From: Pomacea canaliculata | Taxonomy: Eukaryota > Mollusca > Gastropoda > Architaenioglossa > Ampullariidae | Assembly: GCF_003073045.1 (NCBI RefSeq) | Contig: NC_037590.1 | Span: 9,877,042-9,941,041, forward strand | Length of the DNA stretch: 64,000 nucleotides | Direction of reading: 5' to 3' | Shown: piece by piece, positions 27,509 to 63,560 of the stretch | Position numbering within the stretch: position 1 is the first letter of the stretch | Layout of the letters: each line of letters begins with the position of its first letter | Position numbers and translations under genes: made by a program | The notes under the pieces: model-generated | Databases searched by the model: none | Told to the model about the DNA's origin: nothing | The model's input: the letters and a program-made list of their open reading frames with translations, nothing else

Positions 27509-30500
27509 ATGCCTTCCAAGACAGCCAAGAAAAATAAGGTTTGGATAGACAACGTGGTGTTCTGTTACATGTTTCCTATCAAGGATAAAGAAAAATTAAT
27601 AGTTAGGTTCGCCGATTATTTAAAACGTGTGCTATCGAATTTTTTTTCCCCTTGAAAGTAACACGTGGTGCACAGCGCTTGGTAGGAATTAACAAATAGA
27701 CGGATAAAACAGTATTCTGGTGTGATTATATTGTTATTTACCATTGGATTTTTTTGCAGGTATTTTGAGCTAATTTTTCCGTTTATAATTCCAAAACGTT
27801 TCTTTCAAAGTGTAATTAAAGAAATAGGTCACCACGTGCTCTTCTCCTACCACGTGTTTCCGCGTTGTGGCCAGTCTCATCCCAAGCCATTGTTCCGTTG
27901 CATCTTTGCGACCTGATGCTTTGGCACGCGACATTTAAATCGAAATGATTTTTATTACTAGCAAAGCCAAACGCTTTTTTTTTTTGTTCCGGTGAACCAT
28001 GCTTAACGCATTTACTAAGAAATTTTCGTTTTCACGGGGTAGTCATTGCTGTTTTGCACTTTTGTACGAAAGATTTTACTGATGACCTCTTCCCTTTTTC
28101 AGCTATTGCTTCTGTCTGTGCAGCATATTTGATAGCTGGTTGCGCCTCAAAGATGACCTGGCATCATGCTTTCCATATAACACTTGGTGGTGTGTACGAA
28201 TGGGAAAAGATAATCCTGGTCACGGGATGGCTGGCAATCGGTGGTGAAAGAGAAATGTGCGCTAAACTTTGGCAAATCAGCAGGTCTGGCCGCAGACCCT
28301 GCGTAAAAATTGACACGTATTGGGATGATAATTAACTTCTCTTCCGGGGAGAAGTTGCTGTGATGAGGGATAGGTCCTGGCCGCAGGACCAGGTGAGTGG
28401 CAAATGGCATATTTGGCGAATGGCTGTTTCCTTGCGTCGGCAAGGAGGCGTTGCCATTCGGGCAAAAGGCGTAGAGGTTGTCAGCAGCAGCCTTGTGCTG
28501 GTCTGGGAGCTAGAGGCAGCGCCCATGCTGTAACAGTATACCCAGCAGACTAAGTGCTGACAACTTCTGGTCCCTTCTTGACCCATTGATCCAGACTGCC
28601 TGCCTGCCAGCTTGCACTGCTGACTGCTGCGGCCATGGTAAGCTGCGTGTGTGGAAAGTTGGGATCAATAAATAACCATGCCGGTTGTGAATGTTCTCAG
28701 CTCAACAGATTTTAGTATAGTTAAAAACCATGCTTTAGTCATCTTTTTTTCAGCAGGAGACATGTTCTGAAACATGTAACAGGCTTACTTGATTATACTC
28801 AACAGGGGGGACAGGTTTCTGCGAAAGCCAAGGCACCAGAAATTGTTCAGCCAGAATCCGAAGAGAGTTCCGAAGAATCCAGTGATGAGGTGCTTTTTCA
28901 ATCTTTTGCTTGCTATTGGATAACTTAAGGTGCCTTGTGTGCTTAAGCGACAAATACTCAAATGCCTGTAAGAAATTATGCTTTAGTAGAATAGTTTCAG
29001 TGTGCCACTAAAAGTGTAGAGGCTTATTTAATGATGTTAGACAAGATTGGAGGGTTGTCCGCAGTAATATAGTCTTGTGTACGCTGCAGTTATTGCTGTT
29101 GGTCTGTGATGCTTATTGATGACGAGTCAGATGCAAAGATACTGGTGACAATATACGAGGCATTTGTCTGAGACCACATTCTGTAATGAAACTGTTGATT
29201 GCACCCTCTTGAAACTAGCTTAAGGCTTATGTGTTCTCCTCCGGATTTTGATGAAATATTGAAAAGGGCCACCGCCAACAACCACTTAGGATTTTGCCCC
29301 TGCGGCCTTTCTGGAACTTCAAGGCTTTATCTTTACGCATCTTAGGCGCAAGTGTAAACTCAGTTCTTTTATATGGAACAAACAAACACGACTGACCTAT
29401 ATCCACAAATGTCTGCCACATCCTCAAAATCAAATGGCCAGACAAGATCTTTAATGCAGACCTGTCGGAGGAAACCAACCAAAAAACCTGGCAGCCAAGA
29501 CATCAAGAAGACGAAGTACGGCTCGATCAGCAACACCTTTCAATATCAGGCCAAAAATTAACAAGACAATGGCTGGAACCCATAGGAGAGGCTCTGGGTT
29601 GGGAGATCCTTACAGACCCGTGTCCAAGTGCGTGTAGTTGTGGTTCTATGCTCTACTAGGGAGATTAGAAAAAGAAGACAAATGCATGTGACTACATTAT
29701 GCTTTAGTTAAAAATAGTTTCAGTGGCTCACTTTAAGTGTAGAGGCTTTTTTGTTTATGATTTTCTGGGACAATGTCAGCCAAGATATGCATTGTGTATG
29801 CTGCACAGTTATTGTTGTTGGTCTGTGATGATTTATTGATGACGAGTCAGATGCATAGATACTGGTGACACAATATACGAGGCATTTGTCTGAGACCACA
29901 TGCAGTTATATATAAATGGTAATTAAAACCTTATTTTGATACATAATCATGGTTATGTTCTCCCTGATTTTAAACTTTTAGGCTCCTGAGCCTGTCAAAG
30001 TACCAGCAAAGAGCAAGCCACAACCTGCAAAGCAGCCAGCTGCAAGCGACAGTGACAGTGAAGGCATGCATGTCTTTAATATTTTTTAAAAATTAGCTTA
30101 ATTGATCATGATTCCAGTTTTCAAAAGTATTATTTGTAGTAGTTTAAATTATGTTTTGCTGGCCTGTAATGAGGAATTTTTTCCTATATTTTATACTGCT
30201 GAAATAAGGAACTTGACTGAGACCACAGTACTCTAGAAAACCTAAAAGCTACTGCCAAGATGCCAGTAGCTGCCCTAAAAGATAATTTATTGCTTAAGTA
30301 TAAAAGAGAAATGTAAGTCAGTGATTTTTTTTTTAAAGCTTTAATTTTGAAGGTTACATTGTTTGCAGAAAGTGATGATGACGATGATGAAGATGCAAAA
30401 CCAGCAGGAAAGCCTCAGCTTGGGAAAAAAGCCCAGGTGAAAAAAGATAGTGATGATGAAGATGAGTCCAAACCTGCAAGAAGGGTAAAACTTCAAAAGC

Positions 30501-33500
30501 TGCACCAGCTAAAGAAGCTGAGAGTGAAGAAGAGAGTGACGAGAGCGATGAAGATGGTAAATAGTCTTTCCATAAATATGCTGTGCGTTCCTTTTTTATG
30601 GTCAGATATGTACTATACCAGGGCTTCTATTAAGGCTAAATTCTTTGGGGTCCCAGGGACCCCTTCAGATTTTTAAGGGGTCACTGTTCTTTGCCCAAAT
30701 TTGAAGGGGACCCCATTGACGTAAATTGAAGGGGTCCTCCAAACTTTTAATGCGTACTGTACGCAATTTTTTGCGTAAGCAGAAGCACTGCTATACAATG
30801 TAAATACGACATCTGAAAAAAATTATTTTTCTTTCAGCTGAACCTGTGGTTTTTATAACCAATGCAAAGAAACTTGAAGATGGAGCTGTAAAAAAATTTC
30901 TGAAGAAGAAAGGATTAGCAGTGAAGGAAATCCGTCGCTTGGATAAAAAGTAAGTGCATAAGTATATGATTGTGCCTTATTACAGAGTATGTGTGAGGTC
31001 AATTGGTAAAACTACTTGCATAAGACTACTTGTCACACAGCTTAGTATGCATTCACTTTTCAGTAGTTAATTCTCAATATTTGTACTCCTGGTTTTAGGA
31101 CAATTGCTGTTGACCTACTTCAAACTGGTGATGTATCCAAAGCTGTGGCATTGTCTGGTCAAGCTCTAGGAGGACAGGTCTTGGAAATCCAGTCTTCTCT
31201 AGAAAGTCCAAAAAGTGATGGTATGTGAGATCGTTCCCTGTAGGAACATGTGTGACTAACTTATGCTTTTGTGGACCGCTTAAAAGATTTATATTTTTTG
31301 AACAATGTCAGCCAAGAAAAAGGCTTGTCTTTGTAGGTCTAGTCTATTGTGTACGCTGCACAGTTGTTGCTGTTGGTCTGTGATGATTTATTGATGACGA
31401 GTCAGATGCATAGATACTGGTGACACAATATACGAGGCATTTATCTGAGACCACATGTTCTTCATAAGTTCTAGAATCGACAGCATCCAATTTTGCAAAA
31501 TTAAAATGATATAAGCTTTAATAAGCCTTTGCTTAAAAAAATAGTGTCTATGTAAATGCTTGGCATTCTTGATCAGTGATACTATATTTTTTTAAATAGA
31601 ACATTATGGAGTGGTCAACTAAATGTTTTCTTTCTTTTCTTTTTTTTTTTTTTAGTGAAAAAGGCGACAAAAAGACCAGCCTCAGACGGTATGACATTTT
31701 GTATATAATGTACTTGAACTTTTGGATTATTTTGGTAATCTCCGAAAGTAACAGGGTATATCAAGAAATGATAATGAGTTTGCTATTGGATCATGAACAA
31801 GAAATTGCAAAATGTACATGCCTTGGTAGGATTGTTTGATCACTTAGTGTGTCGTTGATTTGTTTTATAGATGAGGATGAGGACGATGACGAAGATGAAG
31901 ATGAGGATGAAGATGATGACAGTGAGAGTCCTGCCAAAAAAGTTGGGAATGAGGCCAAAAAGCAAAAACTTGAATCTTCAAGTATGTATAATGACGAAGT
32001 GAAAAGTTTGATTTTGTACTGCTCCTGAATTGCAATGTTTAACTGATTGGTGCTAAAAAAGTAAACCATTTTAATTATTTAAATTTAAGATTTTGATGTC
32101 GTGTCGTGTGCACAAATTTAAGGCACCTCATTGTTTAATCTGCAGGTGTTTTCACAGCATTTATTGGAGGCTTGAAGGCTGAGACAACAGATGCAACGGT
32201 TAAAAAGTTTTTGAAAAAAAATGGTGTTCAAGCTAAAGAAGTTCGCAAACCAGCAAACAAAAGGTAAAAACAGTACGTTTCTTAAAGGTTTTGTAATGGG
32301 TGAGTAAATCTAATGTTATTTTATGTAACTTAAACTTTTTGTTTTGTAGGTTTGGGTATGTGGATGTTGAGACGCGGGAAGACTTAGAAGCAGTGGTAGC
32401 ACTTTCTGGTGAAACGCTTGAGGGGGAAGTACTCCGCATAGAAGAAGCCAAGCCTAAGGGTTCCAGTCCAGACAAAAGCAAGCAAAGTGGTGATCAGACA
32501 CCTAGTTGGCAGCGAAAAAGTTCAGGTAAATACTCATCATGACACTGTGAAATGAGTACAGAGAAATTCTTGAATTTGATTGTCAAGATAATTTAATATA
32601 ATGTAACATTAATCCAATTGCACTAGAATCTACATCACAACAGAGTTGGGTACACCCGAGTGGTTTGTTAAAGGATGATAATAGTATTTTTATGGAGCTA
32701 GCAAAATTTTAATGGAAATTGCATCAAACATTTCTGTATCAGTCTTGGCTGATGCGGTTCAATTTAGTGTCAAATAGATTAGCCATCAACTGTCTCCAAC
32801 AATCATTGAGCCATTGCTACTTTAAAATAAAAATAAACTACTGAGGACTAGTTTGGACTTCTTTGACTTCTTAGTGTTATATTCCCTGAAAAAACTGTTA
32901 ACCATCCAACTATACTGGTCCCTAAGTTTTGTAACTTTGGTGAAAACCGAAATACAGTTTGATGGACAAATGTTATGCAGCAGTTCATTAGTTATGATGT
33001 GTAACTTGCCCTTACCTCAGTTTCCCTGCTCAGATCAGTTTTTAATGTGTACTCAAGCCTACATCTGCTATTGATGTTTTCCCTAAACCAAAATATACAT
33101 TTACAAATAAAACTAGCTCTTAATACTGTAATAATAAACGAAATGTTAAATATCCCAGCCATAGTTTAAATTAAATAACAAGGCACAACTACTTTATTCT
33201 ATGTTTGTTGGCAATGATGACTGGAACTTGCCCTCTCTGAACTCAATAACCCTGCTGAGATCAGTTTCCAATGTGTACTCAAGTTCTGAGCCGGCAAACT
33301 AGCTGTGCAAAGTTTTTTTTTATAAGACTAAAATTTTGGGAAGAATACTATGTGATATATTCACATTTTAGCAATGGAGGGGAGATTGGTTGTCCCTATC
33401 CAAAATATACACTTACTAAATAAACACTAGCTAATGAAATAATGGACCAAATGTGAAATATCCCGGCCATAGCTTAGTAAGCAAGGAACTACTATCATTT

Positions 33501-35522
33501 AGTCAAAGAAAGTTAGGTTAACCAAATACCAAAAAAAAAAACACCTGAAATATGTAAGTTCATCTAAAAACAACTAATAAAGTTTAAATTGCTTAAATGC
33601 TTAAATTGTTTAAGCTCTTAATACTGTAATAATAAACAGAATATTAAATATCCCAGCCATAGTTTAAATTAAATAAGCAAGGCACAACTACCATTTATGC
33701 TAATAATCATGTTGTTTGGCAATGATGACTGGAACTTGCCCTCTCTGAACTCAATATCCCTGCTGAGATCAGTTTCCAATGTGTACTCAAGTTCTGAGCT
33801 GACAAACTGCTTTGTGAATTTTTTTTTACTACAATTTTGTGAAGAATCCTATATATATATATTCACGACTTAGCAATGGACAGGAGCAAGTTTAAAGTAT
33901 GTTTGTATACATTTATTGAGATTGTAAAAAGATTAACAATGTCTTTTTGGTTTTAACAGATGATGACTGCACACTTTTTGTAAAAAACATTCCAAGCAGT
34001 GTTGATGAAGATCAGCTCCGTGAGTTTTTCAGTGAGGCCACAGAAGTTAGATTGCCTCAGAAAGATGGCAGTCATAAAGGGTAGGCATAAGATTTTTTCT
34101 TGGTATTGCCAGCAGTAGTAATTTCTAGTCACCAAAAAGCCATGTCATTTTGGATGATTACAATGCTGCTTTAATTAGACCAGTAACTGCTGCTTTAGAT
34201 AGACCAATAATTGCTGAAAAGTTTGCCATTTTTTTAAATATAGATATAGCATCCATGTGTTTTTCCATGTGTTTTAGGTTTGCATACATTGTGTTTGCTG
34301 ATTCGGAGACAGCTGATTCGGTCTTGTCAGACAAGCAGGGGGCTGACCTTGAAGGCAATGCATTGTATTTAGACCGCACAGGATCCAAGAGTTCATTCAC
34401 ACCCCGTGACAGGCAGAGTAGAGACAGCTATTGGAGGGAGAGGAGATGGTGCTCGCAAACCTTCAGGTAGGTTTCAGTAACAAGTTAAGCAAAAATCCAT
34501 ATTTTTTTCTATCAAATTAATTGGGACAAATGTATTGCATAACTATGGTGAACTGTTTCTTTCAAGTCCATTATATTGTATTTTACAGGAGAACGTGGTG
34601 AGAGCTCTGTGCTATTTGTGAAGAACTTAAGCTACAATGTTGATGAAGAGGCCCTCAAGGATGCATTTCCAGATGCAGTTGGAGCACGTGTGGCTAGGTT
34701 TCCTGATACTGGAAAGCATAGAGGGTAAGGTTTCTGTGGACTAGTGACGAATCTTGACTAATGCCTTAGTGTTCACCTGTTCAGGAAATTGTGTTCAGTT
34801 ACTTTGTCCCGTAAGTACCATTATTTTTCTTCCGGAATCGTTAATAAAAAATGTACCTGTTGCAGGTTTGGGTTTGTGGACTTCAGCAGTCCCCAGGCTG
34901 CAGCTAAGGCATTCGATGAAAAACAAAGCTCAGAGATTGATGGTAGACAGATCCTACTTGACTTCTCATCACCACAAGGTACATACACTAAAGGTTTCTT
35001 TAAATATTCAGCTTTTAATTGTTGTAACGATGAGCAAGTGCTTAATTGGATTGGTGGAAAATATTAAGCTATTATCCCTTTCAAAGAAAACACCTACATT
35101 GGCTGCTTCTGTAGAATTTAAGCATCTCAGAAGTGCAGATCACACATTTATTTACATTTTTTAACAGGAGGTGGCAGAGGAGGTGGCCGTGGCGGCCGAG
35201 GTGGTTATGGAGACCGAAGGGGAGGAGGAGGAGGATTTGGCGGGCGTGGTGGTGGTCGGGGACGTGGCGGTCGTGGAGGCTTTAACGACCGAGGAGGAAG
35301 AGGTGGCCGCGGTGGCTTCAGAGGTGGCCGTGGAGGTACATATCTTTTCTTGGATATGTTCCCTGTTATTTTAAAAAAGAATTGACCTACTGTGAGGTGA
35401 GCTAGTTTTGCTTTGGAAAGATGTCTTTACAAATGTCTTGTTTTTCTGTATTTTTAGGTGGCGGCGGCTATGGTGAACCACAGAATAAGAAAAAGAGATT
35501 CAATGACTCGGACAGCGATTGA
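27509..35522 (+). CDS. NCL: Nucleolin: acidic region, four RRMs and Gly/Arg-rich tail, 16 exons
   Basis: Major nucleolar protein acting in rRNA transcription, pre-rRNA folding and ribosome assembly. Exons: 27509-27538, 28806-28889, 29982-~30057, 30369-30556, 30838-30949, 31099-31220, 31656-31688, 31871-31981, 32146-32263, 32350-32525, 33961-34080, 34278-34466, 34589-34724, 34866-34978, 35168-35335, 35458-35522; about 615 residues. MPSKTAKKNK is followed by Ser/Asp/Glu tracts with basic spacers, RRM1 (VVFITNAKKL), RRM2 (TAFIGGLKAE, RFGYVDVE), RRM3 (TLFVKNIPSSV, FAYIVF), RRM4 (VLFVKNLSYNV, FGFVDF), then a GRGGGRGGRGG-type GAR domain and the end KKKRFNDSDSD. The third exon's donor is either GT after 30057 or GC after 30064; both keep phase. 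Two single-base indels break the frame, near 30480 and 34430. Introns host C/D snoRNA-like copies. Confidence 0.93.
29099..29177 (+). ncRNA. Intronic box C/D snoRNA-like sequence, LSU-guide family, copy 1
   Basis: In nucleolin intron 2. Closing stem GGTC/GACC, box D CTGA at 29168-29171, and a guide ACGAGGCATTTG just upstream that is complementary to the conserved LSU rRNA stretch CAAATGCCTCGT. Box C is altered (GTGATGC at 29106-29112), though a second TTGATGA lies at 29116-29122. It may therefore be a decaying copy of the one at 29818. Confidence 0.6.
29370..29660 (+). mobile_element. LINE reverse transcriptase C-terminal fragment
   Basis: Plus-strand frames read CLRHILKIKWPDKIFNADL, then LTRQWLEPIGEALGWEI, matching the common LINE tail (LR-IL-I-WPD-I-N--L ... 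R----WNP-GKR-RGRP). It is decayed and inserted between two snoRNA-like copies in nucleolin intron 2. Confidence 0.65.
29818..29899 (+). ncRNA. Intronic box C/D snoRNA, LSU-guide family, copy 2
   Basis: Nucleolin intron 2. Closing stem TGGTC/GACCA, canonical box C GTGATGA (29825-29831) and box D CTGA (29890-29893), total about 80 bases. The 12-base ACGAGGCATTTG upstream of box D is complementary to LSU rRNA CAAATGCCTCGT. By the box D+5 rule the methylated residue would be the third A of CAAATG. Vertebrate nucleolin introns are known to host snoRNAs (SNORD20, SNORD82, SNORA75). The rRNA target sequence is recalled, not in this window. Confidence 0.82.
30159..30228 (+). ncRNA. Degenerate C/D snoRNA-like sequence in nucleolin intron 3
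   Basis: TGGCCTGTAATGA at the left and CTGAGACCACA at the right (box D 30217-30220) echo the frame of the LSU-guide family, and ATACTGCTGA in the middle parallels its ATACTGGTGA. Box C is weak (TAATGA), and the guide next to box D is unrelated (AAGGAACTTGA). It could be a diverged paralogue with another target, or a dead copy. Confidence 0.4.
30619..30790. mobile_element. Short hAT-like MITE in nucleolin intron 4
   Basis: It starts CAGGGCTTCTATTAAGGC and ends GCAGAAGCACTG (CAGTGCTTCTGC in reverse), giving about 9 of 10 matching terminal bases. CTATAC flanks both sides (30613-30618 and 30791-30796) as a probable target duplication. The interior repeats GGGGTCC/GGACCCC words several times. About 172 bases, non-coding. 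Confidence 0.7.
31373..31453 (+). ncRNA. Intronic box C/D snoRNA, LSU-guide family, copy 3
   Basis: Nucleolin intron 6. TGGTC/GACCA stem, box C GTGATGA (31379-31385), box D CTGA (31444-31447). The sequence is almost identical to the 29818 copy, except that the last guide bases read CATTTAT instead of CATTTGT. The complementarity ACGAGGCATTT to LSU rRNA is kept. Similarity to the 29818 copy extends upstream of the snoRNA (TCAGCCAAGA..., ACGCTGCACAGTT), so a larger segment was copied between introns. Confidence 0.8.
32985..33062 (+). ncRNA. Decayed snoRNA-like copy, SSU-guide family, copy 1
   Basis: Nucleolin intron 10. ATGATGT (32994-33000), AACTTGCCCTTA, TTTCCCTGCTCAGATCAGTT and AATGTGTACTCAAG align with the intact copies at 33206 and 33716. 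Neither CTGA D box survives at the expected place, so it is probably non-functional. Confidence 0.55.
33206..33296 (+). ncRNA. Intronic box C/D snoRNA, SSU-guide family, copy 2
   Basis: Nucleolin intron 10. Stem TTGGC/GCCGG (with G-U pairs), box C ATGATGA (33214-33220), box D' CTGA (33237-33240), box D CTGA (33286-33289). The guide ACTTGCCCTC upstream of D' is complementary to the conserved SSU rRNA stretch GAGGGCAAGT (just before GTGCCAGCAGCC). The D'+5 rule points to the second G of its GGG, which I believe is close to human 18S Gm601 (recalled). The guide upstream of box D (TGTACTCAAGTT) has no target I recognise. Confidence 0.78.
33716..33803 (+). ncRNA. Intronic box C/D snoRNA, SSU-guide family, copy 3
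   Basis: Nucleolin intron 10. Box C ATGATGA (33722-33728), D' CTGA (33745-33748), D CTGA (33794-33797), stem TTGGC/GCTGA. The guide ACTTGCCCTC at D' is identical to the 33206 copy. The whole 75-base core differs from it at only about two positions, which argues for constraint or recent duplication. Confidence 0.78.
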
Positions 35523-35789
35523 AGAAGTGCTACCAGAGAAAAAGAGAATGTGTAGAGCATGACAAATGGAAGATGTAAGAGTGTATGTAGATGGGTGTTT
35601 TATGTATGCATGCATAATTTTAGTTTGAAGGTTTTAAGTTTGACTGCTAATAATAGTGGTTAGGCAGCGAGAAAAACGTGGTATTGTAATATGTTGTATG
35701 AACAATTTGTGCCATTTCCGTCGAGCACAAAAGGGCTGGAGTTCAAGTTCTTGCTTTGGCTGCTGTTGTCGTTAATATTTTCTTGTCAA

Positions 35790-35795
35790 AATAAA
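35790..35795 (+). terminator. Poly(A) signal of nucleolin
   Basis: AATAAA about 270 bases after the stop codon, followed by AGTTTGTAAAAAC and a GT-rich TCTGTCTGTATG stretch, the usual arrangement of hexamer and downstream element. Confidence 0.8.
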
Positions 35796-38700
35796 AGTTT
35801 GTAAAAACATTTATGTGCAAACATTCTGTCTGTATGCATGGTTACTCAAATCGATAGCATACAAAATCCTGTTATACGACAGAAATTTAAGCACACGTCG
35901 CGACTGCAACTGGACTTAGCCAGAAAGCTTGCAAATATGATTACTAACTGGCATAAACATGTAGTAGTTATAAATTGCAAACAAGCAGGATTTTTTTTGT
36001 CAGCTTTCACGTCTGTCATGTACTCAAAACGACAGGTATAGGTCAAATGAAAAGCCGATGACCCGTAAGAGACCTAGAAGTAAATGCTTGTTAAAACGCC
36101 ACTAAAACTTTGACCATTCGCATTTCTAAGGGTGGGTTGCTACGCACGCTAAGAACTATTGCTGTTGCCAATCATTACAATGACTTGAGATGTTAGTCCA
36201 GTTTCCAGCACGTCTTATTTCTTGTCAAGTTTCCTCCCCTTTCAAGTGTTCCGAATGAAAAATGTTGACAGAAAACACGAACGCCTGTACCCATTCACGC
36301 GGGAAAAATCACTGGCACGAAAAAGTGACCGTACATCTTATAAATTTTTACAGACACCAAAGACTTCGGTTTCATATGCAATCTAAATGATAGTTATCAT
36401 CAACGCTGCAAGTTATTAATGTTCCTCCCCCCTACCCCCTGCTGTCATCACCCATGAACTAGATATTGCATTCTTTATTCGGTGTTTGCAAATGTGTAAA
36501 GCCTTCGCACTATATTTTGGGAGGGCCTCCTATGTGTGGGTCAAGGGGGACACGGGTATCGACGTTGAAAGTCAGCACGAAATGTACCCGAGGGCAGCAC
36601 TGGGGTCGCGTGTGAGAGAAAACTGCCGGTGATGACCGCGGTGTGCCTTCGATTGATCGCGCTACTTCCAATCTCACTCCCCCTCCACGCCCCCGTAACT
36701 GACAGTTTGTGACGCGAGACAGATTGAAGCACACGATAATTAGTGGGTTGCAAAGGACTACGTTAATGAGCTAGGCGGCTAAAAATAGATTGCATACCGT
36801 ATTCTCATCACTGAAGCTCCTTCCGTTTTCGACTCTGGTTCTTTCGGATTGTGAGTCAGTCGTTCTGTTTAAGGCCAACACTTGCTCTCTCGGTGAAAAT
36901 CGCTGGAGATAAAATATAAAACATCACCAAAACACTGTTCGGTCTTACAGTCTTACAGCAGTACCAACTACACAAAAGCACAGCTGTTAAAACCAACTAC
37001 GACCGCTGCTGAAAAAGCACAACAAACACCAGATGTGCAACATCGACGTTTTTTTTCACAAACTTGCCTACAAGTAACATCGTGTTACAGTCACACAGGT
37101 GTATCACCAACTTCCAGTACATGTCTGTGGTCCTTTTTTTGTCCAGTCCAATGCTCAAAACTGACAGTGTGAGGGCATTATTGATGTACGTGCAGCATTT
37201 ACAATAGAATTGAGGGTGACAAACGTATGAAGGATATCTAAATATGTGTAGAATTATTTTTTAATGGTAAAACGTCATTGTCAGCAGTCAGTTACAATTA
37301 TAAAGTAAAAATGTAATGCTGGAAATTAACCACCTAACAAATTACAGGAGTGTATCTTAGACAAACATTTGAAATGGGTTTATATTTTAGTGACAATGCA
37401 TGGAAAATTTACTCAAATGCGCCTACTTGGTAAAAAAGAATCAACAACGTAGACTGCAATGAACCTGATCGTTAGAAATAAGATTATGATCTGGAGGAGC
37501 TTTACCTACCAGTATGTCAAATAAATTTGGTTTAGACCTTTTTTTTTTTAACTTCAGTTGAAGCAAATAAAGTTGAAATCCGCAGAGCTGTATTAAAAAT
37601 TCAGCCGTTTCATTATCTTGGGTAAAAAATAACATACTGAAGATGACAATCCAAGCGATGTTGCTTTATTTGACTAGGGTTGCTGAAGTGACTGATACAA
37701 ATACTATTTGTACACAACACCACTCTCCTCCGTAGCGGGTATTTTTCTTCTGTCATCGAAGTAGCAGGTGAGAATGCCGATGTTTGAATGCTTACATTTT
37801 AAAAATTAAACATAGTTATGTACTCGTATTTTGGGGATGATTGTTTTAAAATAAACTTAACCTGATCATAATGAAAAACATGTTTCACTCGTGTCGGCAT
37901 TTAATTTATTAGCGATTGGGAGATGTAGGGGAGGAGGGGTAGGGGAGTTGATAGTAGCGGGATCGCAGTATTGAAATGCTCGATAATAGTATATCAAGGG
38001 CTGTAACCAATGAAATTTCATTATTTATAATCGTAAAAATTTCCTCAAAAAAAAAAAAAAAAAAAACAAAAAAAAAAGCTAATGGCGTACATCTCAAACC
38101 AGGTAACGAGTGCATAGGATAATGTTTACAGAATAATAAATAAAAAATGTGGTGGAGAAGAAATTTACCAACCGCCGACTGAAGCTTCAGACGTTGTCAG
38201 TGCAATTTTAAACGTTGCCTGGCGTATAGTTTCCGGTAATTAAAGCTCAAAACATGAAAGTTCACACAGTCGTAGAGTACACCTGTACCCTTTCTTCATG
38301 CACGAACCCATAAAACTGCGATCTCCCAGATTTTTTTTTGTTTGTTGCAATAATCAGTTAAGTAGATAACGCTTACAGGTGGTAATCAGGTTTTCTAAAA
38401 GTTTCGCTTTTGTACCTAAACGTTCTGCCAAGCATTTAATAAGTTCTAAATGAAAATGAGCTGAAAAATTGGCAAAAAAGAAAAAAGAAAAAAGTGCAAA
38501 CTATTAGCAGAATAATGGTCTGAAGGTAAAGCTGTCAACTTGTAACAGGCTTAGTAGTGGCGGAGCAACCAAGAAGCAGTTAAATGGCGATCTCTCCATT
38601 GCAAGATGGTATCAACAAATAGCGGCAAAGAGGCAAGTGTCAGAGTAACAACAGTATGTTTCTTTTAAGTTGCAGCTTAATGCATTCTTTTCTCACACAT

Positions 38701-44700: not shown

Positions 44701-46317
44701 AGGCCACACCTCCCAGGAGCAAAAGTCTATGGGCGAGGATCAGGCAGCGGTGGATCTGATGATCCGTTTCCCAGGCGAGGGGATGACGCCATAGCACGGC
44801 CCACTAATTTCCCTCTACCCCACTCCCCCTAACCCACCCCCTAAAATACCTCTCTCTGCATCCTTTTATGAGTTCCAGCAAAACGTTTGCAAACACCCTC
44901 GGGAGACAAACACTGCTGGGGGGAAAGATAACATGGTAACCACTGGCAGCGGATTTCTTTTTCTCCATTCACAGTGCCACGGTGGGATTGGTTTGACACC
45001 ACAGCTTTGTGAAGTGTGTCTCAATGAAAGGTTTGCTGCTGCTTTTGATACCTACGTGGGCGCGTGCGTGCTTGTGTGTGTGTGGTAATGATGTGCTTAG
45101 TTTTTGTCTGAGACCCCATAATTAACGCGTTGGCGGTTAAACTGCTGTACTGGGAGCTTGATAAATGTTGCAAAGATGGAGTGTTGCACTCCATTACAGT
45201 TCCAGGAACTGACGAATCGGTTGGAACGGTAAACTTCGTCTCGCCGCAGCCTCACAAATACATTTTTGTTTTGTTTTCAACGTGTTGCAGACGGGAGCGC
45301 CTGGAGCGATCGTTCACGGCCTGACACTTCTTGGAGCTCGAGGTCATAGTGCATGCTTGAACTTGTAAATCCGTTTTTTCCAACAGTGAACTCTCGTGTG
45401 CGCATGCACATACAACGTCACAGATAACGGATCCCAACGTATCTGCAGAATCTTGGTTTCAATACCTGTACAGGTGAGTGGATTCTTTGCAGGTTTGCTG
45501 TCGATTCTTTATTTATGAAAAGTTTGCTTAGTTGTTTGTGCCTGTATGAACAAAACTGCAGACGCTTAAATGTAGCCATTTCTTTTTTATTTTCATGACG
45601 AGAGGAAGTCGTATTAAGCTAATGACCCTCTAAAACTGATCTGGCTTTAAGTTTTGACACTACTTCTGACTGCTCTTAGTGCTACATTAAGACAAAATGA
45701 GGCCAAGGAGGGCATACAATTATCATCGCACGTGTTCTTCGTGCTCACAGGTCAACCTATGCCCCTCCCACAACACACGCAAACGGAGAGAAGAGATAAA
45801 TAATGTAATACAGACACATACTTTCAGAAGACCTGAATGCATATCGTCCACTCCCTTGCACCGTTTTCCTTTTTTTTTTTCTCTCTATCCGTTATCAGCA
45901 ACATCACCACCACAGATGAATGTAAAACGCAGTTGTGGAGGTAGACGCGATGTAAGAATGAGAAGTTCCGGGTGGACCAGGCTGGCTGGCTTCATAAACT
46001 GTTCAGCGTCAACAGTTTTAGTGGATTTGTAGAAAGACAGTAATTGTACGCAGTTGAAACATGGGCTGTTTGGACCAGGATATATTTGTACTCATGTTTC
46101 ACTCACAGAAATCTGTTTCACTTGTCGAAAGCAGAGCTACAGGCGAGGGCCAAAGTCACGGTACTACACACATTTTTCTTGTCAAGAATCAGACTTGAAT
46201 TTCTGTTCACTGCTTTTTGAAAGATATGACCGCTAACACTTTTAAATGTTGCATGAGTATCATTTTTTTGTTTAGTTTGATGCTCGTGGGTTCAAGTTCG
46301 GGGACTTGGTCTTTAGT
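35796..46317. other. Gene-poor interval between nucleolin and the first mGluR-like gene
   Basis: About 10.5 kb without a convincing exon. It holds a LINE reverse transcriptase fragment (40150-40620), poly-A/poly-T runs (38049-38067, 41850-41862) and a moderately GC-rich stretch at 42300-42700 with no recognisable product. Promoter and any 5' UTR exons of the downstream receptor must lie in its right part. TTTTTTGTTTAG at about 46264-46275 could be the acceptor of a coding or 5' UTR exon. Confidence 0.5.
40150..40620 (+). mobile_element. LINE reverse transcriptase fragment
   Basis: Plus-strand frames read WILDFLTNRQQRVFVNGLLS (about 40370-40430), then DPDVTCTGSLYGCCLSPLLF and ILCSN, then KFADDT-like bases (AAATTTGCTGATGACACTTG near 40546). 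This is the palm domain of a CR1/L2-like reverse transcriptase, including the FADD motif region. The frame breaks before FADD and no complete ORF remains. Confidence 0.75.
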
Positions 46318-46353
46318 ATGTCATTTGCTATCTCAATCAGGTCACATCTAACA

Positions 46354-49300
46354 ATGCCACCCGGCTTCTTAATCGTCGGATGTCTCTTCTTGGCGACTTT
46401 GTGGGTGGGAACATCTCGGAGCGGCGAGATTCGCCCCATCGCAAATATGACCCACATCACCTGGCAACGCCCCGGTGACTTGACCCTGGGGGTCATTCTC
46501 TCTCTCAGCGTCGCCGACCCACACACCTCCTGCGGCCGGAGGCTGCGCCGCCCGTCTGCTCTTCACCGCCTTGAGTCGCTGGTGTTTGCAGTAGATGAGA
46601 TCAACAGGAGGACCGACCTCCTGCCAAACATCACCCTCGGTTTCGTCATCATGGACGACTGCTCGCTGGAGACCGTGGCGCTGCTGAGGGCGCTGCACTT
46701 CATCCAGAAGCCGCCCCCGCGATTGCTGCCAGGTGGAGACATGGAGGAAACAGGGGCTTTGCACACCTTCCGGTCTTTTCCGGTGGTAGGGGTGATCGGG
46801 GCCGAGCTTAGCGCCAGCTCCATGCAAATGGCCAGCCTGCTGTCCCCTTTTCACATACCACAGCTCAGCTACGCCTCCTCCAGCCCTCATCTCAGTGACA
46901 AGCAGCGGTACAAGTTCTTTTCCCGCCTAGTACCGTCCGATCGTCAGCAGGCGTTGCTGATCACCGACATCCTGGAGCAGTTCAACTGGACCTACCTGAC
47001 CATACTGTACTCCTACAGCGTCTACGGCCAGTCGGGGCTAAAGCATCTCTTGTCCGCCTTATCCGAAAAGAAGAATTACTGCGTGGCCACGTCCATCATG
47101 ATCGAGAGCAACTTCAAAGACGAAGACTTCGACGCGGTCATCGAAGACCTGCTGAAGATCAAGCGCTCAAGGGTGGTGGTCATCTTTGCTCTGGAAGGAC
47201 TTTCCATCCTACGGGCGGCTCAGCGCAAGGGGGTGAAAGGTGATTTCGTGTGGATAGCCAGCGACGCGGTTTTGCCGAACGTGCAGGACTTCAAGGGAAT
47301 CGAAGATGCCTCCTTGGGCATCCTGCTGGTGGGATTCTCGTCCAACCCAGTTGCCAGGTTCGAGAACGCGTTAGAACACTACACGCTGAACTCTCGGACG
47401 GAGAACCCTTGGTTTCATCTCTTCTACCAGCAAATGTTTGACTGTTCTACGGAGCTGGATTCTTCGCCAACGAACAGAACCTGCGACCGCGACTTGCCCA
47501 TCTCTGCGTCCCCCGCCTACGCTCGCAGCACCACCGTCTCGCGCGTCTTCGACGCAGTCTACGCCTATGCGCATGCGCTTCACGCGCTGACCAAAGACTG
47601 TCACCTGGCACCGCACGAGGCCAGCAGTTGTTTCACGAGCGAGCAGCTCTTCGAGACCTTAAGATCCAACACAACCGCCTTTGTAGGTGAGAGCGATGTT
47701 CCGGTCGGCTTCGATTCTCTGGGGGACGGGCCACCGATCTACCAGGTGAAAAATCTTCGCGTGGACAATGGCAAGTACAGTTTTGTGACCGTTGGGGAGT
47801 GGGATGGCCGCTTCAGATACTTTGACAAGGACCACATTATGTGGCATCCTGGTCTGCTAGAGCCCGGAGACGAAACTCCCAAGTCGTACTGCAGGTAAGA
47901 GAACAGAGAGTGAGTGTTGTGGGACCCCCGAGGTGGCTGACACCTGTACATTTTATTCTTTCCTCGCTCTCTCCACTTCATCTCAACGGGTACTTGAACT
48001 ACAGCAAACAAAATAAAATGTCAAATGATGCTTATCAGCAATATTGCGGATAAAATTAAAAACACCCATTCTCATATAGAGACAGTTACTCCATACGAAT
48101 GCAATAAAGTCGAATCAACAAAGTGTTTCTGGTATTGAAGCAGGCTATGTAAGCCATCTTGCAACCAGAGCGGAAAAACTATGAATATTTTACTGGGATT
48201 TTCCCATCGGGGACGCTTTTCTAGCAATGACATTGTCCGTTAATGTAGGAGGTCGACATGGTAATTTAGACCCTTTCCAGCAGTTTTATTAACATTAACT
48301 ACATCGATAAATGGTCCTAGACGCAACAGGGGCCATTGTTACTGCATAAAGTTTAATCATAAATGTCACGAAGTGGCCTGACATTTGTCTCCACTCTCTT
48401 GCTTTCTTTTTCTTTCTTTTCTTTCTTTATTTTTTGTTTGTTATTTGTTATTTGTTATTTTTAGTTTCAATTTTTATTTCTTTTATTTGCATATTTTCCT
48501 TGTTTTATTTGTTTTGTTTATACATTTTGATTTTTGTTCTCTTAAAATTTGTATATTTGTTTTTGTTGTTTTTTTTTTAATATTTTTTTTCCTTTTTTTT
48601 CTTGAAATCAGTCTTGAAAGTGTGTGGAAGCTTTATCAAAGTAAAAGAATCTGTGGAATATCTGGAATGCAGCGAGCAGTGCGGGGTAGGGCAGCAGGCC
48701 ATGCGGTCGTGGCCAGTGTGCTGCTGGACATGCGAGCCTTGCCGAGAGAACGAGCGCACAGTCGTGCGTGACGACCTTCCCATCTGCCAGCTCTGCCCCA
48801 TCAACCCCGACACCGGCAACTTCACCTGGCCCGACGAGGCCACGCGCACGCGCTGCGACCCCATCCCTCCGACCTTCACCTCCTTCCGCACGCTAGCGGC
48901 GTGGTGATCCTGGTGCTGGACCTGCTGGTGCTGGCGCTGACCCTCACCTCCAGCGCCCTCTACGTGCGCCAGCGCGCCACGCGCCTCATCAAGGCCAGCA
49001 GCCGGGAGCTTAGCGGCCTGATGCTGGGCGGTCACGTGGTCGCCTGCCTGCTGGTGCCGGTCTTCGTGGTGGAGCCCTCGGCCGCCTCCTGTCTGCTGGG
49101 TCACACCGGCTTCCACCTCTGCCTGACGCTAGTCTACGCTCCGCTGCTGGTCAAGACCAACCGCATCTACCGCATCTTCATGCTGGGGAGGAGAACGACG
49201 AAGAAGCCGCCTTTCGTCAGCTCGTTGGCACAGATAATCGCATCTGTCACCATCGTCGTGATGCATGTAAGTGGCCAGCTTCAAGGTGGAGCGAAGTTTA

Positions 49301-50054
49301 CAGCACACCTTGTGTGTAAGATAACTTGGTAAGGTGCTCACTATGGCACTCGCCAGGTACACTTGCTAAGTACACAAAGTGCTCGTGCATGACTGCTTTA
49401 TTTTGTTAGTTTTAAATACTGTTTTATAAATTCCTGTTTAATCTTTTCCGCTAGCATCATTTTTCTTTTTGTTGTTGTATATTCCGTTCTGCATTTTTTC
49501 TAAATTTTTGTTTCTACATTTCTGTTGCTCGCCTAATACCCATCCTATGTTTGCAGTTGGTGCTGGTCGTGGCCTGGGTATCGACAGACCCACCCAGAGT
49601 CCTGACGCGCATGCCCAACTTGAACCGGAAGTACGTTGAGCGTGTGTGCGAGGTGTCGGAGCGAGGCTTCATCCTGTCCACCGTCTTCAACCTGCTGCTG
49701 ATGGCGGCGTGCGTCGTGCACTCCATCTTCACGCGCCACCTGCCGGCGAACTTCAACGAGGCCAAGTTCATCGCCTTCTGCATCTACACCATCGTGGTGC
49801 TGTGGCTGTCCTTCCTGCCCACCTACTTCGTGGTGGACACTAGCGAGGTGCGAACCCTGTGCTTGACCCTGGCGCTGCTGGTCAACGTCATTTCCTGCCA
49901 GTGCTTCCTGTTCCTCACCAAGCTGTACGCCGTGTACCGGCTTCCGGTCTCCGCGCAGCACGTGCAGTCAGGGTCATCAGAATCAGACAAACGCACCGAG
50001 GCCACGTTCCTGAGGGAGCCGAACCACGCAGCCATAGTGCCCTCGAAGCTGTGA
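46354..50054 (+). CDS. Metabotropic glutamate receptor-like class C GPCR (receptor A), 3 exons
   Basis: Plasma-membrane receptor that couples extracellular ligand, probably glutamate, to G proteins. Exons 46354-47894, 48673-49266, 49557-50054; about 880 residues, as usual for mGluRs. A signal peptide (MPPGFLIVGCLFLATLWV) is followed by the Venus-flytrap domain in one exon, a cysteine-rich domain with all nine cysteines (CSEQC...CCWTCEPC...CQLC...TRTRC), seven membrane spans and a short tail. Class C hallmarks: NFNEAKF before TM6 and TKLYAV after TM7. Pocket residues of mGluR1 appear kept: Arg (ALHRLE), Ser (LSASS), Ser for Thr188 (YASSS), Asp (VPSD), Tyr (VYGQSG), Asp (IASDAV); Lys409 is not obvious. 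An in-frame ATG lies at 46318 too. One single-base shift near 48900, just before TM1, separates TLAA from VVILVLDLL. The exons are GC-rich, unlike the flanks. Confidence 0.88.
48395..48602 (+). repeat. T-rich low-complexity tract in receptor A intron 1
   Basis: About 200 bases of TTTCTTTC, TTTGTTATTTG and TTTTTATTT words without longer structure. It ends about 70 bases before the splice acceptor at 48672, so it may act as an extended pyrimidine tract, but a nearer acceptor (TTGAAATCAG, 48612) would not keep the cysteine-domain frame. Confidence 0.7.
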
Positions 50055-52056: not shown

Positions 52057-55000
52057 AGTGTTTGTGTTTTCTGTGTTTTCGTTCATGTTTTGTACCTGCG
52101 AGTTCAGTGCCGTACCCAGGTAATAGTTTGAACAGGTTGTATCTATCTGTTATGCACTCTCCCTGTAAGAGGAGTCTGATAATGTGATAAATAAAACATC
52201 TGTATTCATGTTTTATTTTATTTTCCAGTGAGCGATCACGTGTGTGTGTACATTGCACATTACATACTGACTGACGTTCACACAAAACTCTGGGTGGGTC
52301 TGTGATACACAGACCACTGACATCATATCACACAGTATATGATAAATATATTTCAATAGATACAATATTATATTTTTAGTCTAAAGAACATTCTTAACTG
52401 AAGAAACAGAAAATAGATGCTATATTATTTTATGCTGTCTATTGCTCATTGCACCTAAACATTTTTATTGGCGTCAACTTTTCAAACCTCGAATGTGACC
52501 ACAACTCATGATATTGAGATTAGGGAAATCTGTAACCATTTAAAAAAAATTTTTTTTCTCACGAATACAATATGCAAGAGAGCGAGGTGATCACCGAGGC
52601 ATAAATGGTCTTTTTACTAGTTTATTTTGGGACACATTTGACAGTACTGAACGCATTTCCGTAAAAGTTCCCCAGATGTAGATTATTTCTCCAACAGATG
52701 GCGGCAAGGTGACGAGTTAGAACTGTGTTATCTTTCATGAGTCATTCTCATATTATTTGGTCAACATTGAGTAATATTGTGTGCACTTTTCTCTAGTTGT
52801 GCCCCTGGTCACTTAGTCAATCATCGTGTACCTTGTGGCTTATCTTATTCCACATTTTAGTTGCATGCATGCTTTTACCAGCTATCTGCAAGTCACCTGT
52901 CTCATTTAATCGAACAAAATTTTGTAGGACTTTCACAATTCGCTCATTTATCTTTTAATTTGAAAGGTGATTCTCCAAGATTGATTCTTACATGTTATTG
53001 AGAGGCTGAGAGTAAAGAAAGTTTGCCCAGGTACTTCCTCTCGGATTCTACCCCCGGTTCACGGAATTTACTGTTTTGTTTTCTGTTTTTTATTTCTATT
53101 GATAAGACTGGTACTGTAGCGGACCTAGGTCCCCTCTGAGGGCTGAAAGTTTGGCTGGTGAGCGGTCAAACGATACAACAGGCTCCGTGTAGTCGCAGGC
53201 TGGGTTAATGAGAGTCCGGGAGACAAAGGAATTGCTGTTCGGGTTTCACGAAGCCATGGAGTTGGACGGATCAAAACATTTCACTGGTAATGGGAGCTGG
53301 GGCCAGAGGTATGCACGTGTGTAGGCACTAGCAGCAGGGTTAATGATTGATGCTGGTTAGAATGTGCATGATCAAGATACATCTCTTTAGCTGGTTGCTT
53401 CGTGGTAACCATCCGCTTAGCCACGATTCATGCAGTCGGCCCCTGGAGTGTTTTGCTCGCAGGCTGAGAAGAGACTGACAGAGTTGTTGTCTCGGAGGCA
53501 AAATTAATTCCCTTTGATGCCAACCCAGTGCAGGGACTAACTCGACTTCCACCCTCCGACCTTGTGTGTGTGTTGGTGTCTGTGTGTGTGCGGGGGACGG
53601 GGAAGAAAGGTCCATATATTTTTAGGGGATTATTTCGAATATTTCTCTCTGCATAAAGTATAATATAATCGGTCAGAGGAGGTAACTTTTTAGTGAAAGT
53701 GAAAGGCGCGGTAACAACCTCTCAGCAACATTCTCGAAACTCATACATTTGTATGCAATAAATGTAGTTCAGTCCTGTTACATGTCACTTCTGATGAAGT
53801 AACTTCTTTCTTCTCAGCTTCCTGCAATATTTCTAGCAAGGAAACTCACTTGCGAAGTAGGAAGGGTGTGGATACCCTGGATACCAGCTCCCTTTACAGG
53901 ACGAAAAGAACAGTTATACACAAGAAGCTGTTTCACACATCGCAAATTGCTCGCATCCCCCTACATACCCACGTACCATCACCCACCCCACCCCGACCTT
54001 CATTTCCGTCTTGTTAATCAGTCCATCGTCACTTTTATTATGAGGGTGCATGAAACAGCTGTTCACAGAAAACAAGCAAAGTATTTATGTCAGAGTAGAC
54101 GCGCTTGAGGAAAACATGGTTTGAAACATTTCCCAGTAACACTCAGTTGCTTCTTGTGTGTTTCAAATACTCCCAGTACTTAATATCCTTGTCCTGTAGA
54201 CACGACATATCGTTGTTCCATCTTTTCGTCGCCGTGAAAATGTGAGCGACAAATCCACAGCCGCTGATTGGTTGACGGTAAAGTACCACGTGACACGTGT
54301 ACCATGTGAATAACAAATTCAGTCCGAATCCATCCATCTCATCTTTCCAAGCAAAACACATCCGGATGTAATCCCCAGACTGCACCGCGATGCTTTCCCA
54401 AGGACGAATTGTTTAGAAAGACGGAGAGAAGATGAGGAGTAAACATGAAGACATTTTATAGCCGCCATCACTCTCTCACCAGACCTTGACCTCGTGGAGG
54501 TTGTTTCCCTTGACTCGCGACTGTAAATTTGATGCACTCGGTGAGGTTGTTGAGGAAACGAACACATGGGGTTCTTTGTCCTAAAAATGAGCCATCTTTT
54601 TTTAAATGCCCTGAGTGGAGACAGGAGAAAAGCAGCTGATGGGATTGGCAAGGGAAGGAAGCAGGTGCAATGCGCGTTGATGTAATGACGGAGGTTATTT
54701 TCTCACAGAGTGATCTCCCAGGACAGTGTTCGATCGTTTGAATTTACTTCCATCTCACAGCTCTGGTTGTGTTTGTTATTCTACATGATTAACTGACAGG
54801 CGTGGTTTATTAACTGTCATGTTTATTAAATGATTACAGCTTTCAATTTTTTTTTCAAGAACAGAATTAATGTTTCTCTTTCCCCGTCGTTAAAAAACCG
54901 TACTCTTTCCAATAAACCACCCATAATGCAACGCAAAGGTTTTTTTTTTTTTTTAAGCGATACCATTACCGTTAACACACTGGTTGAAGCCGTCGACTAC

Positions 55001-58666: not shown

Positions 58667-61600
58667 TCACCCTTGACCTGCTTGCTGGCCTCCCACGTGA
58701 TTATCAGAAGGGTTAGTCGTCCGGTTTTCTTTCAGGTGCATATCCTTCTCTGGAACAAAGTGCACGGCGTACAGCTTGGGAAGGAAGAGGAAGACCTGAC
58801 AGGAAATGACGTTGAGCAACATGGCGAATCCAAGCGACATCGTCTTGACGACGTTGCTGTCGGAGATGAAGTAGGTGGGCAGGAAGGACAGCCACAGCAG
58901 CCCGGTGGTGTAGACGGAGAAGGTGATGAACTTGGCTTCGTTGAAGTTGGCCGGCAGGCGGCGCGTTTTGATGGCGTGCACGCCGCACGCCGCCATGATG
59001 GAGAGGTTGAGGACCAAGGAGACGAGGAAGCCACTCTGTGGGGAGGAACACTTCCTCTCCACAAACCTCACGCTCAGACTCGGCATCGTGGTGCTGGCGG
59101 TCGGGAGGTTCAGCCCCATCCACACGCACATCACAAGGAACTGCGGACAAGCAGACAAACGGTTATTTTGCGACCAGGCAGCTACAGAAACAAAATAAGC
59201 ACATTAGCCAACGGACAAACCGTCAGGCCATATTTTTTGAAAACGGTTAAAGTAAAACAGATATCAAGATAAAACAGTTAATAACACGAAAGAATGGGAT
59301 TATTTATTTTCTTTTGTGCGTTTGTATCCAGGATCCAATTTCTATCAGGAAATTTCTTGATTCAAGAAACAAAGCCATGTTGTGTCTACACCTCTCGTGT
59401 TTTCATTTCTAATTAACGGAGTCATTATTGTGTTTGCTGTCCACTCGGAAGACACCTCGCTTTAATTTACTGAAATTGTGGCCCGTTAGTAATTTTCCTG
59501 CCTCTTGTATGGTCCAAGGGATGCAACTACTACTACGCTCTTCTTGGTAACAATTCTTCAAGAGTTTCTCCCCTTGCTCCAGCCTTTACCTAAAATATTT
59601 TTTATTTGGCTTGTACTGACTTGAACTCAAATTGGCTGTCCGATACAGATCAGTTGTCACATGTGTGCAATTTTCACGATCAATTTCACACAATCTGAAA
59701 TCTTTGTGGAGATATTATTTACTTTTTATTTTAAAATATAATCTTGGTTGTCTGGTTGTTGGCATTTTACACTGTCCGTAGGTGCAGTACGTCGATGTGG
59801 TCCACCCAAAATTTTATTAAAAAAATCTGTCAGACTGCGTGCAAGTAAAAAACTTCAACATTACTTACTTAGACTTCTCTCATCACTTCTGAGGTAATGT
59901 CGTCCTCTTTCACCCTTTGATAAATACATTTCGTAACCTTTCTCTCCCCTGGTGGAATAATACAATAATATTAATGTCATCTTTTCTCATCGCACAATAA
60001 TTATTAGGCCCTTTATGAAACGCGATCAAGGGAAATGCTGAAGCTTCCAGGCAAATAATTTATAGAACTGTGAGCAGCAAGGCGAAGTCCTTCACTGAAG
60101 TTTGTTCACTTCTGTCCATGATGGACATTGTCAGGAGATCGTCCTTATGACTAATGTGACACAGGGATGGGTGAATACATGAGTTGTGATTTTCCCACCT
60201 GTGAAGCGACGAGGACAGCAGCGATGACTACCTGAGCCCTGGAGCCAATGAACAGAGGTTTTTTAGTGATCGCCTTGCCAGGCATGAAGATCCGGTAAAT
60301 TCTGTTGGTCTTCACCAGGAGGGGACCATAGGACCAAGTGAAGGACAGGTGGAATCCCCAGTAGACATGACGCAGGTCGCAGAAGTGGGTTCAAGGACAA
60401 AGTTCACCACTAGGAAGCAGGTGATGACGTGACCGCACAGCATCATGAGCGACAACTCTCGACTACTGGCTTTAATCAGCCTCGAGTGCCTGTTCTTGAG
60501 GTACACGGCGCAGACGGTGCAGGTGACGAGGAAGACAATGAGATCGCAGGCCAGTAGTAGCTGCCCCTCCAGGCGCGAGAAGTGGACGAAGGTGGCAGGT
60601 ATCGGCAGACATCTGGTCCGTGTCTCAGCATCTGGCCAGGTGAAGTTTTCAGCAGTAGGACATACCTGTGGAGGCAAGACAAGGCAGTCGTTTTGACATT
60701 TCAAAACATAATCACAAGATACAGCCTGAGTATCACTGAGACTGCGCTGTTGATGACAGAATACACAACACAACACAGAACTGAACACAATCACAGGCAT
60801 AACTTAACACAATATAACAAAATACAGCACAGAGTACAGTTCACAATACAAATACGCTGACAGCCCAGGTCACGTGCCCACCTCGCACTTGGGAAGGTTG
60901 AGGAGGATCGTCCTCTCGTTGTCCCGACGGCTCACAGTACCAGCAGCACGAGGGCTGGGTCGTGACGGCCTGGTAACCCACAGAACATGGATGACTGCAC
61001 ACAGAGGATGGAACAGCCCAACCAAACTTGTGTAGGAGGGCAGAGTTCCATCGAACCTTGTTCTGGAATCAGAAAGCAAAGGGAATGACAAGCGACAGTG
61101 AAATTTGTTCGTTCTTAACTCCCTTAGAAGCGTCACCTGTATGCTAATGGTATACTCGATCTTGTCCACACGAATAAAGACATGCTAGGAATATTATTGT
61201 TACTCAGAATAGTATATCTACCACAGCGCTTGTGAGATCTTTATTCTGTTAATGATGGATTTTAAGTGCAGTGTCTAAGTCAGATATTTGTGGAGGAAGT
61301 GCGACTTCATTACATCATGTGATCCTATGTTTCACATCACAAATGAGGCAAACACATCGAATATTGAAAGTCAGATATGGTCTCTGGGATGATCTAGTCT
61401 TTCCACTTCCTGCCAATAGCATACAACACTTAAATAATAAACGTGTGAAGGGCCTTTGGTAAAAATACCCCAAATACCCGACTTTACCCGAAAAATACTG
61501 TAATATTTTCCTTGAAAGAGGCAAACCGCCCAGTAAATTAATCTGAATAGTTAATGTGAATAGGCTTTCTTATGCAGATGAATGTACACACTTTAAGCTA

Positions 61601-63324: not shown

Positions 63325-63349
63325 CTGCACAAGGGAGGAAAAAATATAT

Positions 63350-63560
63350 GATAAGACTTTATTTATCCCTGAGGGCAATTAGTAAGCAATGGTTAGAACC
63401 ACACACTAGAACAACATCACCAATCAGCCACACCATCATAGATTCATACCCGCCACACCAAAAGACCCTCATTCAATCACAGTCCAAAGCCTCCTTTCAC
63501 CATAATTCGTTCACAGTCTGCAGCGTTCAGAAGTCGCAAGGCCAAAGTAACAAAGGACTT
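63350..63560 (-). mobile_element. LINE 3' end, same family as 19340-19640
   Basis: On the minus strand KSFVTLALRLLNAADCERIM ends the reading frame, and the 3' end AATTGCCCTCAGGGATAAAT followed by AAAGTCTTATC matches the terminus at 19345. It lies in the first visible intron of receptor B. Confidence 0.6.

Follow-up and report, generated by a model that had tools for sequence, protein, structure and literature searches.

The closest described relatives of the elements reported here are the U15, SNOR75, and snR75 small nucleolar RNAs (snoRNAs), box C/D guides for two neighboring sites in the RNA of the large ribosomal subunit. The first site is listed as yeast Am2281 (snR13), human Am3764 (U15A/B), and Arabidopsis Am2271 (U15), the second as yeast Gm2288 (snR75) and Arabidopsis Gm2278 (U15), with no human counterpart in the same listing (PMC8817022). 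SNORD15/U15 is also given for A3764/A2271 (PMC6461891), and a D′ guide of Neurospora for 26S-Gm2250 is paired with both snR75 and U15 (PMC2780460). For chicken, PMC2653536 lists three U15 copies of 158 nucleotides (nt) in introns 4, 5, and 6 of RPS3, one 90-nt copy for the U15 site in RFWD2, and three U103 copies in PUM1, and names intragenic duplication as the main route to new snoRNA copies. Here, we describe a stretch of 64,000 nt from the gastropod Pomacea canaliculata (contig NC_037590.1, positions 9,877,042 to 9,941,041; hereafter the window), whose gene for nucleolin contains three elements that are very probably intron-encoded, dual-guide box C/D snoRNAs of the U15 type, duplicated within the gene and providing redundant dosage.

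All three elements are found at the positions and on the strand given by a first-pass annotation of the sequence, and a hand-made exon map of the gene bears out their assignment to introns 2, 2, and 6 (Table 1). The annotation was also right about the class of RNA, the large-subunit target, the A predicted to be methylated, and the nucleolin host; that the elements belong to the well-known U15 group escaped it. A 5-bp closing stem (TGGTC/GACCA) and a CTGA box D are present in all copies, as had been proposed, whereas the supposedly common box C is exact in two of the three and differs in copy 1. The 3′ end of copy 2 lies 82 nt from the next exon, near the exon spacing that is favored for intronic C/D snoRNAs.

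The 12-base guide ahead of box D had been thought to be the same in all copies. It is exact in copies 1 and 2 (ACGAGGCATTTG) but carries one mismatch in copy 3 (ACGAGGCATTTA), located at D+2, so that 11 bp still cover the target A. The D+5 rule assigns this guide to the third A of CAAATG, in agreement with the methylation site predicted earlier. On its own, the 12-mer is weak evidence because its frequency in the window is near chance (seven occurrences with up to two mismatches versus 5.06 expected). A second guide, overlooked in the first-pass annotation, stands ahead of the D′-like motif CAGA; it is exact in all three copies (GATGACGAG) and would target the G of CCUCG, seven bases beyond the A of the D guide. 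The D+5 rule and this spacing together suggest that CAAATG and CCUCG correspond to the listed sites Am2281 and Gm2288. Because both guides fit the two sites listed for U15 and snR75, the elements appear to be of the U15 type and to follow the two-guide plan of plants. The D guide falls at the R2/I-PpoI region because the target of U15 lies there.

The guides also match the 28S ribosomal RNA (rRNA) of the species itself, a complementarity that had been proposed as a check. With 28S fragments in the genome, the D guides of copies 1, 2, and 3 pair over 12, 12, and 11 bp and the D′ guide over 9 bp; both guides are exact in copies 1 and 2 (a 24-mer present at two places in the genome), and copy 3 retains the full D′ guide and 11 bp of the D guide. 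Duplex energies are −19.8, −19.8, and −17.0 kcal/mol for the D guides of copies 1 to 3 and −15.2 kcal/mol for each D′ guide; none of 500 mononucleotide-shuffled targets reaches any of these six values. The guides span bases 13–24 (D) and 20–28 (D′) of the target stretch used; with five target bases in common, they are expected to act one after the other or on different molecules. Both places of the 24-mer are fragments or rearranged pieces of ribosomal DNA (rDNA), and 28S fragments elsewhere in the assembly have diverged. At one rDNA locus (L010), a gap of 5,000 Ns lies about 2.5 kb from the joined 18S-like and 28S pieces; there and at a second locus (L012), rDNA is present in the assembly as fragments and rearranged pieces.

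The first-pass annotation had also suggested a search with C/D snoRNA models. Between positions 28500 and 36000, the Rfam model SNOR75 (RF02539) aligns by cmscan over its full length with all three copies (Table 1), but each score stays below the gathering score, and the whole window contains no match at Rfam gathering thresholds. The yeast-type snR75 model matches copies 1, 2, and 3 weakly (21.9, 28.1, and 29.7 bits). Judged by their sequence, the copies belong with the U15/SNOR75/snR75 group; they are not Rfam-certified members of SNOR75, although they are predicted to work like them. A scan of the forward strand of the gene for box C, box D, and the stem, using patterns composed with the copies already known, finds five candidates, three of which are the U15-type copies; 100 dinucleotide shuffles of the gene yield a mean of 0.16 candidates and a maximum of 3. 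Across the whole window, the same scan finds seven candidates on the forward and one on the reverse strand, three of them outside the gene (two forward, one reverse); the two on the forward strand lie at 36629–36702 and 54682–54796.

Table 1. Coordinates of the nucleolin gene and of the snoRNA-related features in its introns (positions within the window)
Feature	Position	Strand	Location	Details
Nucleolin, host gene	28635–35522	+		16 coding exons placed by hand
U15/SNOR75-type C/D snoRNA, copy 1	29099–29177	+	intron 2	SNOR75 46.0 bits, E 4.4e-7; box C GTGATGC 29106–29112; D′ guide from 29118; D′-like CAGA 29128–29131; D guide from 29155; box D 29168–29171
U15/SNOR75-type C/D snoRNA, copy 2	29818–29899	+	intron 2	most canonical of the three; SNOR75 45.3 bits, E 7.1e-7; box C GTGATGA 29825–29831; D′ guide from 29838; CAGA 29848–29851; D guide from 29877; box D 29890–29893
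U15/SNOR75-type C/D snoRNA, copy 3	31373–31454	+	intron 6	SNOR75 42.5 bits, E 4e-6; box C GTGATGA 31380–31386; D′ guide from 31393; CAGA 31403–31406; D guide from 31432, mismatch at D+2; box D 31445–31448
Shared upstream block	29785–29817 (copy 2)	+		partly kept at about 29068–29098 (copy 1) and 31340–31372 (copy 3)
Diverged fourth U15 paralogue	30157–30230	+	intron 3	box C TAATGAG
SNORD103/85-like C/D snoRNA, copy a	33207–33295	+	intron 10	43.3 bits (gathering 45)
SNORD103/85-like C/D snoRNA, copy b	33715–33803	+	intron 10	39.0 bits (gathering 45)
Decayed relict of SNORD103/85-like unit	32983–33057	+	intron 10	

The copies closely resemble plant U15/SNOR75 (RF02539; Arabidopsis U15). They share its compact form, closing stem, and box C, and have its D′ guide (GATGACGAGTC) and D guide (CGAGGCATTTGTCTGA) for what are listed as the same two sites; they differ in scoring 4.0–7.5 bits under the cut-off, in a shorter middle, and in the nucleolin host. 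Vertebrate U15 (SNORD15A/B) guides the same A as listed for human and likewise occurs in several copies in one host gene, but the chicken host is RPS3 and the chicken RNA is twice as long as the present copies (158 versus about 80 nt), the 90-nt copy in RFWD2 excepted. Yeast snR75 has the D′ guide for Gm2288 in common with the copies; in the yeast listing, however, the two sites fall to two snoRNAs, with snR13 serving the A, whereas here both guides reside in one RNA. The family snoMe28S-Am2589 (RF00529), which we take to be from Drosophila, shares CGAGGCATTTGTCTGA but is matched weakly (27.6 bits, E 0.54), and its consensus as shown is without the GATGACGAG element. Chicken nucleolin itself is listed as host of U82 and U20 (NCL introns 5 and 11; PMC2653536), which have other guides and 18S targets.

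The host gene encodes a protein with acidic stretches, RRM domains, and a glycine-arginine tail, the features expected of nucleolin. For both RRMs searched, the nearest solved structure is nucleolin; within the assembly, the last RRM scores highly in this gene only (94.7 and 68.4 bits in two exons), followed by a match of 33.0 bits. Intron 3 would be of the GC-AG type.

Several observations weigh against the interpretation of the elements as U15-type snoRNAs. All three SNOR75 scores are under the gathering score of 50, which marks family membership, and the vertebrate SNORD15 model (RF00067) misses the copies: among the seven matches in the species' own genome at E values up to 10 (48 of 30838 candidates scored), the best has 24.5 bits (cut-off 75) and none lies in the nucleolin gene, and SNORD15 is likewise absent from the cmscan results for 28500–36000, from which three overlapping matches of the same clan were left out. 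The last base of box C in copy 1 is non-consensus, the next exon is 804 nt away from copy 1 and 201 nt from copy 3, and the D′ box is CAGA rather than CTGA in all U15-type copies. The single-strand folding of the copies is no better than that of shuffled sequence, as is common among C/D snoRNAs. For the 28S target, rDNA fragments are the only source here, no intact rDNA unit having been seen, and the host frame as assembled is shifted by single bases in exons 4 (30369–30556) and 12 (34278–34466), for which assembly errors are a likely cause.

The CAGA motif also bears on the role of the second guide. The D′ element may serve as extra pairing that aids modification of the A, leaving the G unmethylated; this is possible rather than probable. 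Such a role would fit the altered D′ box and the lack of a human methylation at the Gm2288 site in the table of PMC8817022, but the same table lists Arabidopsis U15 and yeast snR75 for this G, and a 9-bp guide with the correct D+5 spacing argues for more than additional pairing.

The deviant box C of copy 1 and its 804 nt to the next exon would likewise be expected if the working gene were copy 2 only, perhaps with copy 3, and copy 1 were decaying and still similar through recent origin or gene conversion. Decay does occur in this gene, as documented by the diverged fourth copy and the SNORD103-like relict. Nevertheless, copy 1 has kept both guides, box D, and the stem exactly and agrees with copy 2 at 77 of 79 aligned bases next to diverged flanks, which makes its decay rather unlikely. 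That the three copies are redundant guides remains the most likely interpretation.

The homology upstream of all three copies shows that they were duplicated as DNA. In a stricter alignment, which supersedes a count with lax gaps (shuffled baseline 69–75%), the bodies are 96–99% identical (77/79 for copies 1 and 2, 81/82 for copies 2 and 3, 76/79 for copies 1 and 3). For the same pairs, identity falls to 69–85% in the 130 nt upstream (92/124, 83/98 with many gaps, and 79/115) and to 47–64% in the 60 nt downstream (35/55, 33/54, and 27/58), where the mean of shuffled sequences is about 60%; the downstream score of copies 1 and 2 is slightly above the shuffled mean (1 versus a mean of −6 and a maximum of 2), and their BLAST alignment extends about 70 bases beyond the snoRNA, neither of which applies to the two pairs with copy 3. 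Fisher tests separate the bodies from the upstream 130 nt (p = 4e-6, 9e-4, and 9e-7) and from the downstream 60 nt (p = 2e-7, 3e-9, and 1e-11). Since the bodies are nearly identical and the flanks have drifted, selection seems to have preserved the snoRNA bodies, unless they were homogenized by gene conversion.

Recent gene conversion or re-insertion in place of long-term selection is an unlikely but not unfounded explanation of this pattern. Between copies 2 and 3, an identity of 96% holds over 112 bp with sharp boundaries, 27 bases upstream of the snoRNA included. The nearest 30 nt upstream are intermediate in identity (82–86%; p = 0.013, 0.005, and 0.075 against the bodies), so that in copies 1 and 3 the body does not clearly exceed these bases in similarity, and fresh duplication has apparently taken place in this gene in the case of the SNORD103-like pair. 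Against conversion or re-insertion, weaker homology reaches further upstream in all three pairs, and the best-conserved stretch largely coincides with the snoRNA. Chance resemblance, or a repeat without snoRNA function, would explain SNOR75 scores below gathering and a near-chance 12-mer but is hardly credible given the coincidence of two guides, two boxes, a stem, a target, and selective conservation.

Immediately 5′ of each copy lies a block of about 30 bases that is better conserved among the copies than most of the flanking sequence. An H/ACA RNA in this block was rejected, as its folding is no better than that of shuffles at all three copies; among the loci searched, the complement of the block has one 11-base match (locus L011, not shown to be rRNA). 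The interval from copy 1 to copy 2 holds, at 29180–29700, a broken coding remnant that is apparently similar to the end of LINE reverse transcriptases.

Further snoRNA-like elements reside in the same gene. The paralogue in intron 3 has its ends and part of its interior in common with copies 1–3, but its D′ guide is gone and its D guide altered; it is a decaying or re-targeted copy. Its alignment score with copy 2 is 12 (maximum of 4 in 500 shuffles), and the scores with copies 3 and 1 (10 and 8) are also reached by none of 500 shuffles. Shared boxes explain a small part of this likeness because the SNORD103-like copy a, used as a control, scores −6.5, a value reached by 2 of 500 shuffles. Rfam models give weak and mixed matches to the paralogue (best SNORD93, 21.3 bits, E 0.09) and no firm family, and the available rDNA pieces yielded no rRNA target for it. 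A 12-base match in locus L023 was judged to be a repeat rather than rDNA, and the word TCAAGTTCCTTA of the paralogue occurs 60 times in the genome (70 times for the reversed control), with none of the occurrences at the rDNA places seen.

The SNORD103/85-like snoRNAs of intron 10 have a D′ guide (ACTTGCCCTC) that matches GAGGGCAAGT in the species' own 18S pieces, although the pattern by which these pieces were retrieved contained the GAGGGCAAGT stretch. Their bodies (87/92 identical), upstream flanks (87/91, with 10 gap columns), and downstream flanks (67/80) suggest a recent duplication and give no sign of selection because the upstream flank is as alike as the bodies.

Non-exhaustive searches of the 440-Mb assembly found no further convincing U15 copy. 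With SNOR75, they returned five matches at E values up to 1 (55 of 117424 candidates scored), three of which are the nucleolin copies. Words that resemble the D′ guide with one mismatch are present in the remaining two (28.4 and 28.0 bits), but neither strand contains GAGGCATTT there, even with one mismatch allowed; they are chance-like, and sub-threshold matches were likewise obtained in 8 of 14 prokaryote controls. The pattern GAGGCATTTNNCTGA occurs at 25 places in the assembly (5 for the reversed control), and among the 20 places read, GATGACGAG stands upstream in the three nucleolin copies only. In the RPS3 region of the genome (9.9 kb around matches to query residues 9–216), there is no U15 family match and no candidate in the forward-strand box scan, and guide words occur only with one mismatch (three, all unpaired); a single weak match is to SNORD51 (28.3 bits, cut-off 50). 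The exact two-guide pattern is absent from a prokaryote and a viral contig collection, counts that say nothing about molluscs because of what these collections contain. Elsewhere in the window, pieces of class C receptor genes with ANF_receptor and 7tm_3 domains lie at 46306–49329 (forward strand) and 58670–63378 (reverse strand).

If the copies function as U15-type snoRNAs, each would be excised from the spliced nucleolin intron and protected by the four C/D core proteins (fibrillarin, NOP56, NOP58, and 15.5K). The D guide would then bring fibrillarin to the third A of CAAATG in 28S rRNA, whose CCUCG would be reached, at the G, through the D′ guide. Expression of the copies and methylation of both sites are predicted on these grounds, and copies that arose by DNA duplication inside the nucleolin gene would provide redundant dosage.

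The elements do not constitute a system of a new kind. Novelty cannot be claimed for the guide because the U15/SNOR75/snR75 group already covers both sites; the impression that multi-copy hosting of this guide had not been described is likewise corrected by chicken RPS3, but it holds for the host gene and the lineage in the literature searched, where no U15- or SNORD103-type snoRNA in nucleolin was found in print (open-access publications). A wider scenario, which we regard as doubtful, is that, in this line of molluscs, U15-type and SNORD103-type snoRNAs came to reside mainly in nucleolin instead of RPS3 and PUM1, that a single U15-type RNA still methylates the A as well as the G, as it does in plants, and that duplication within the gene is yielding a re-targeted fourth snoRNA in intron 3.

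An ancient snoRNA resides here in a host gene other than the one listed for chicken, and the compact two-guide layout of plants is kept in an animal. Methylation of the Gm2288 type, listed as absent in human, becomes testable in a mollusc, and the nucleolin gene presents the duplication, retention, and decay of snoRNAs side by side.

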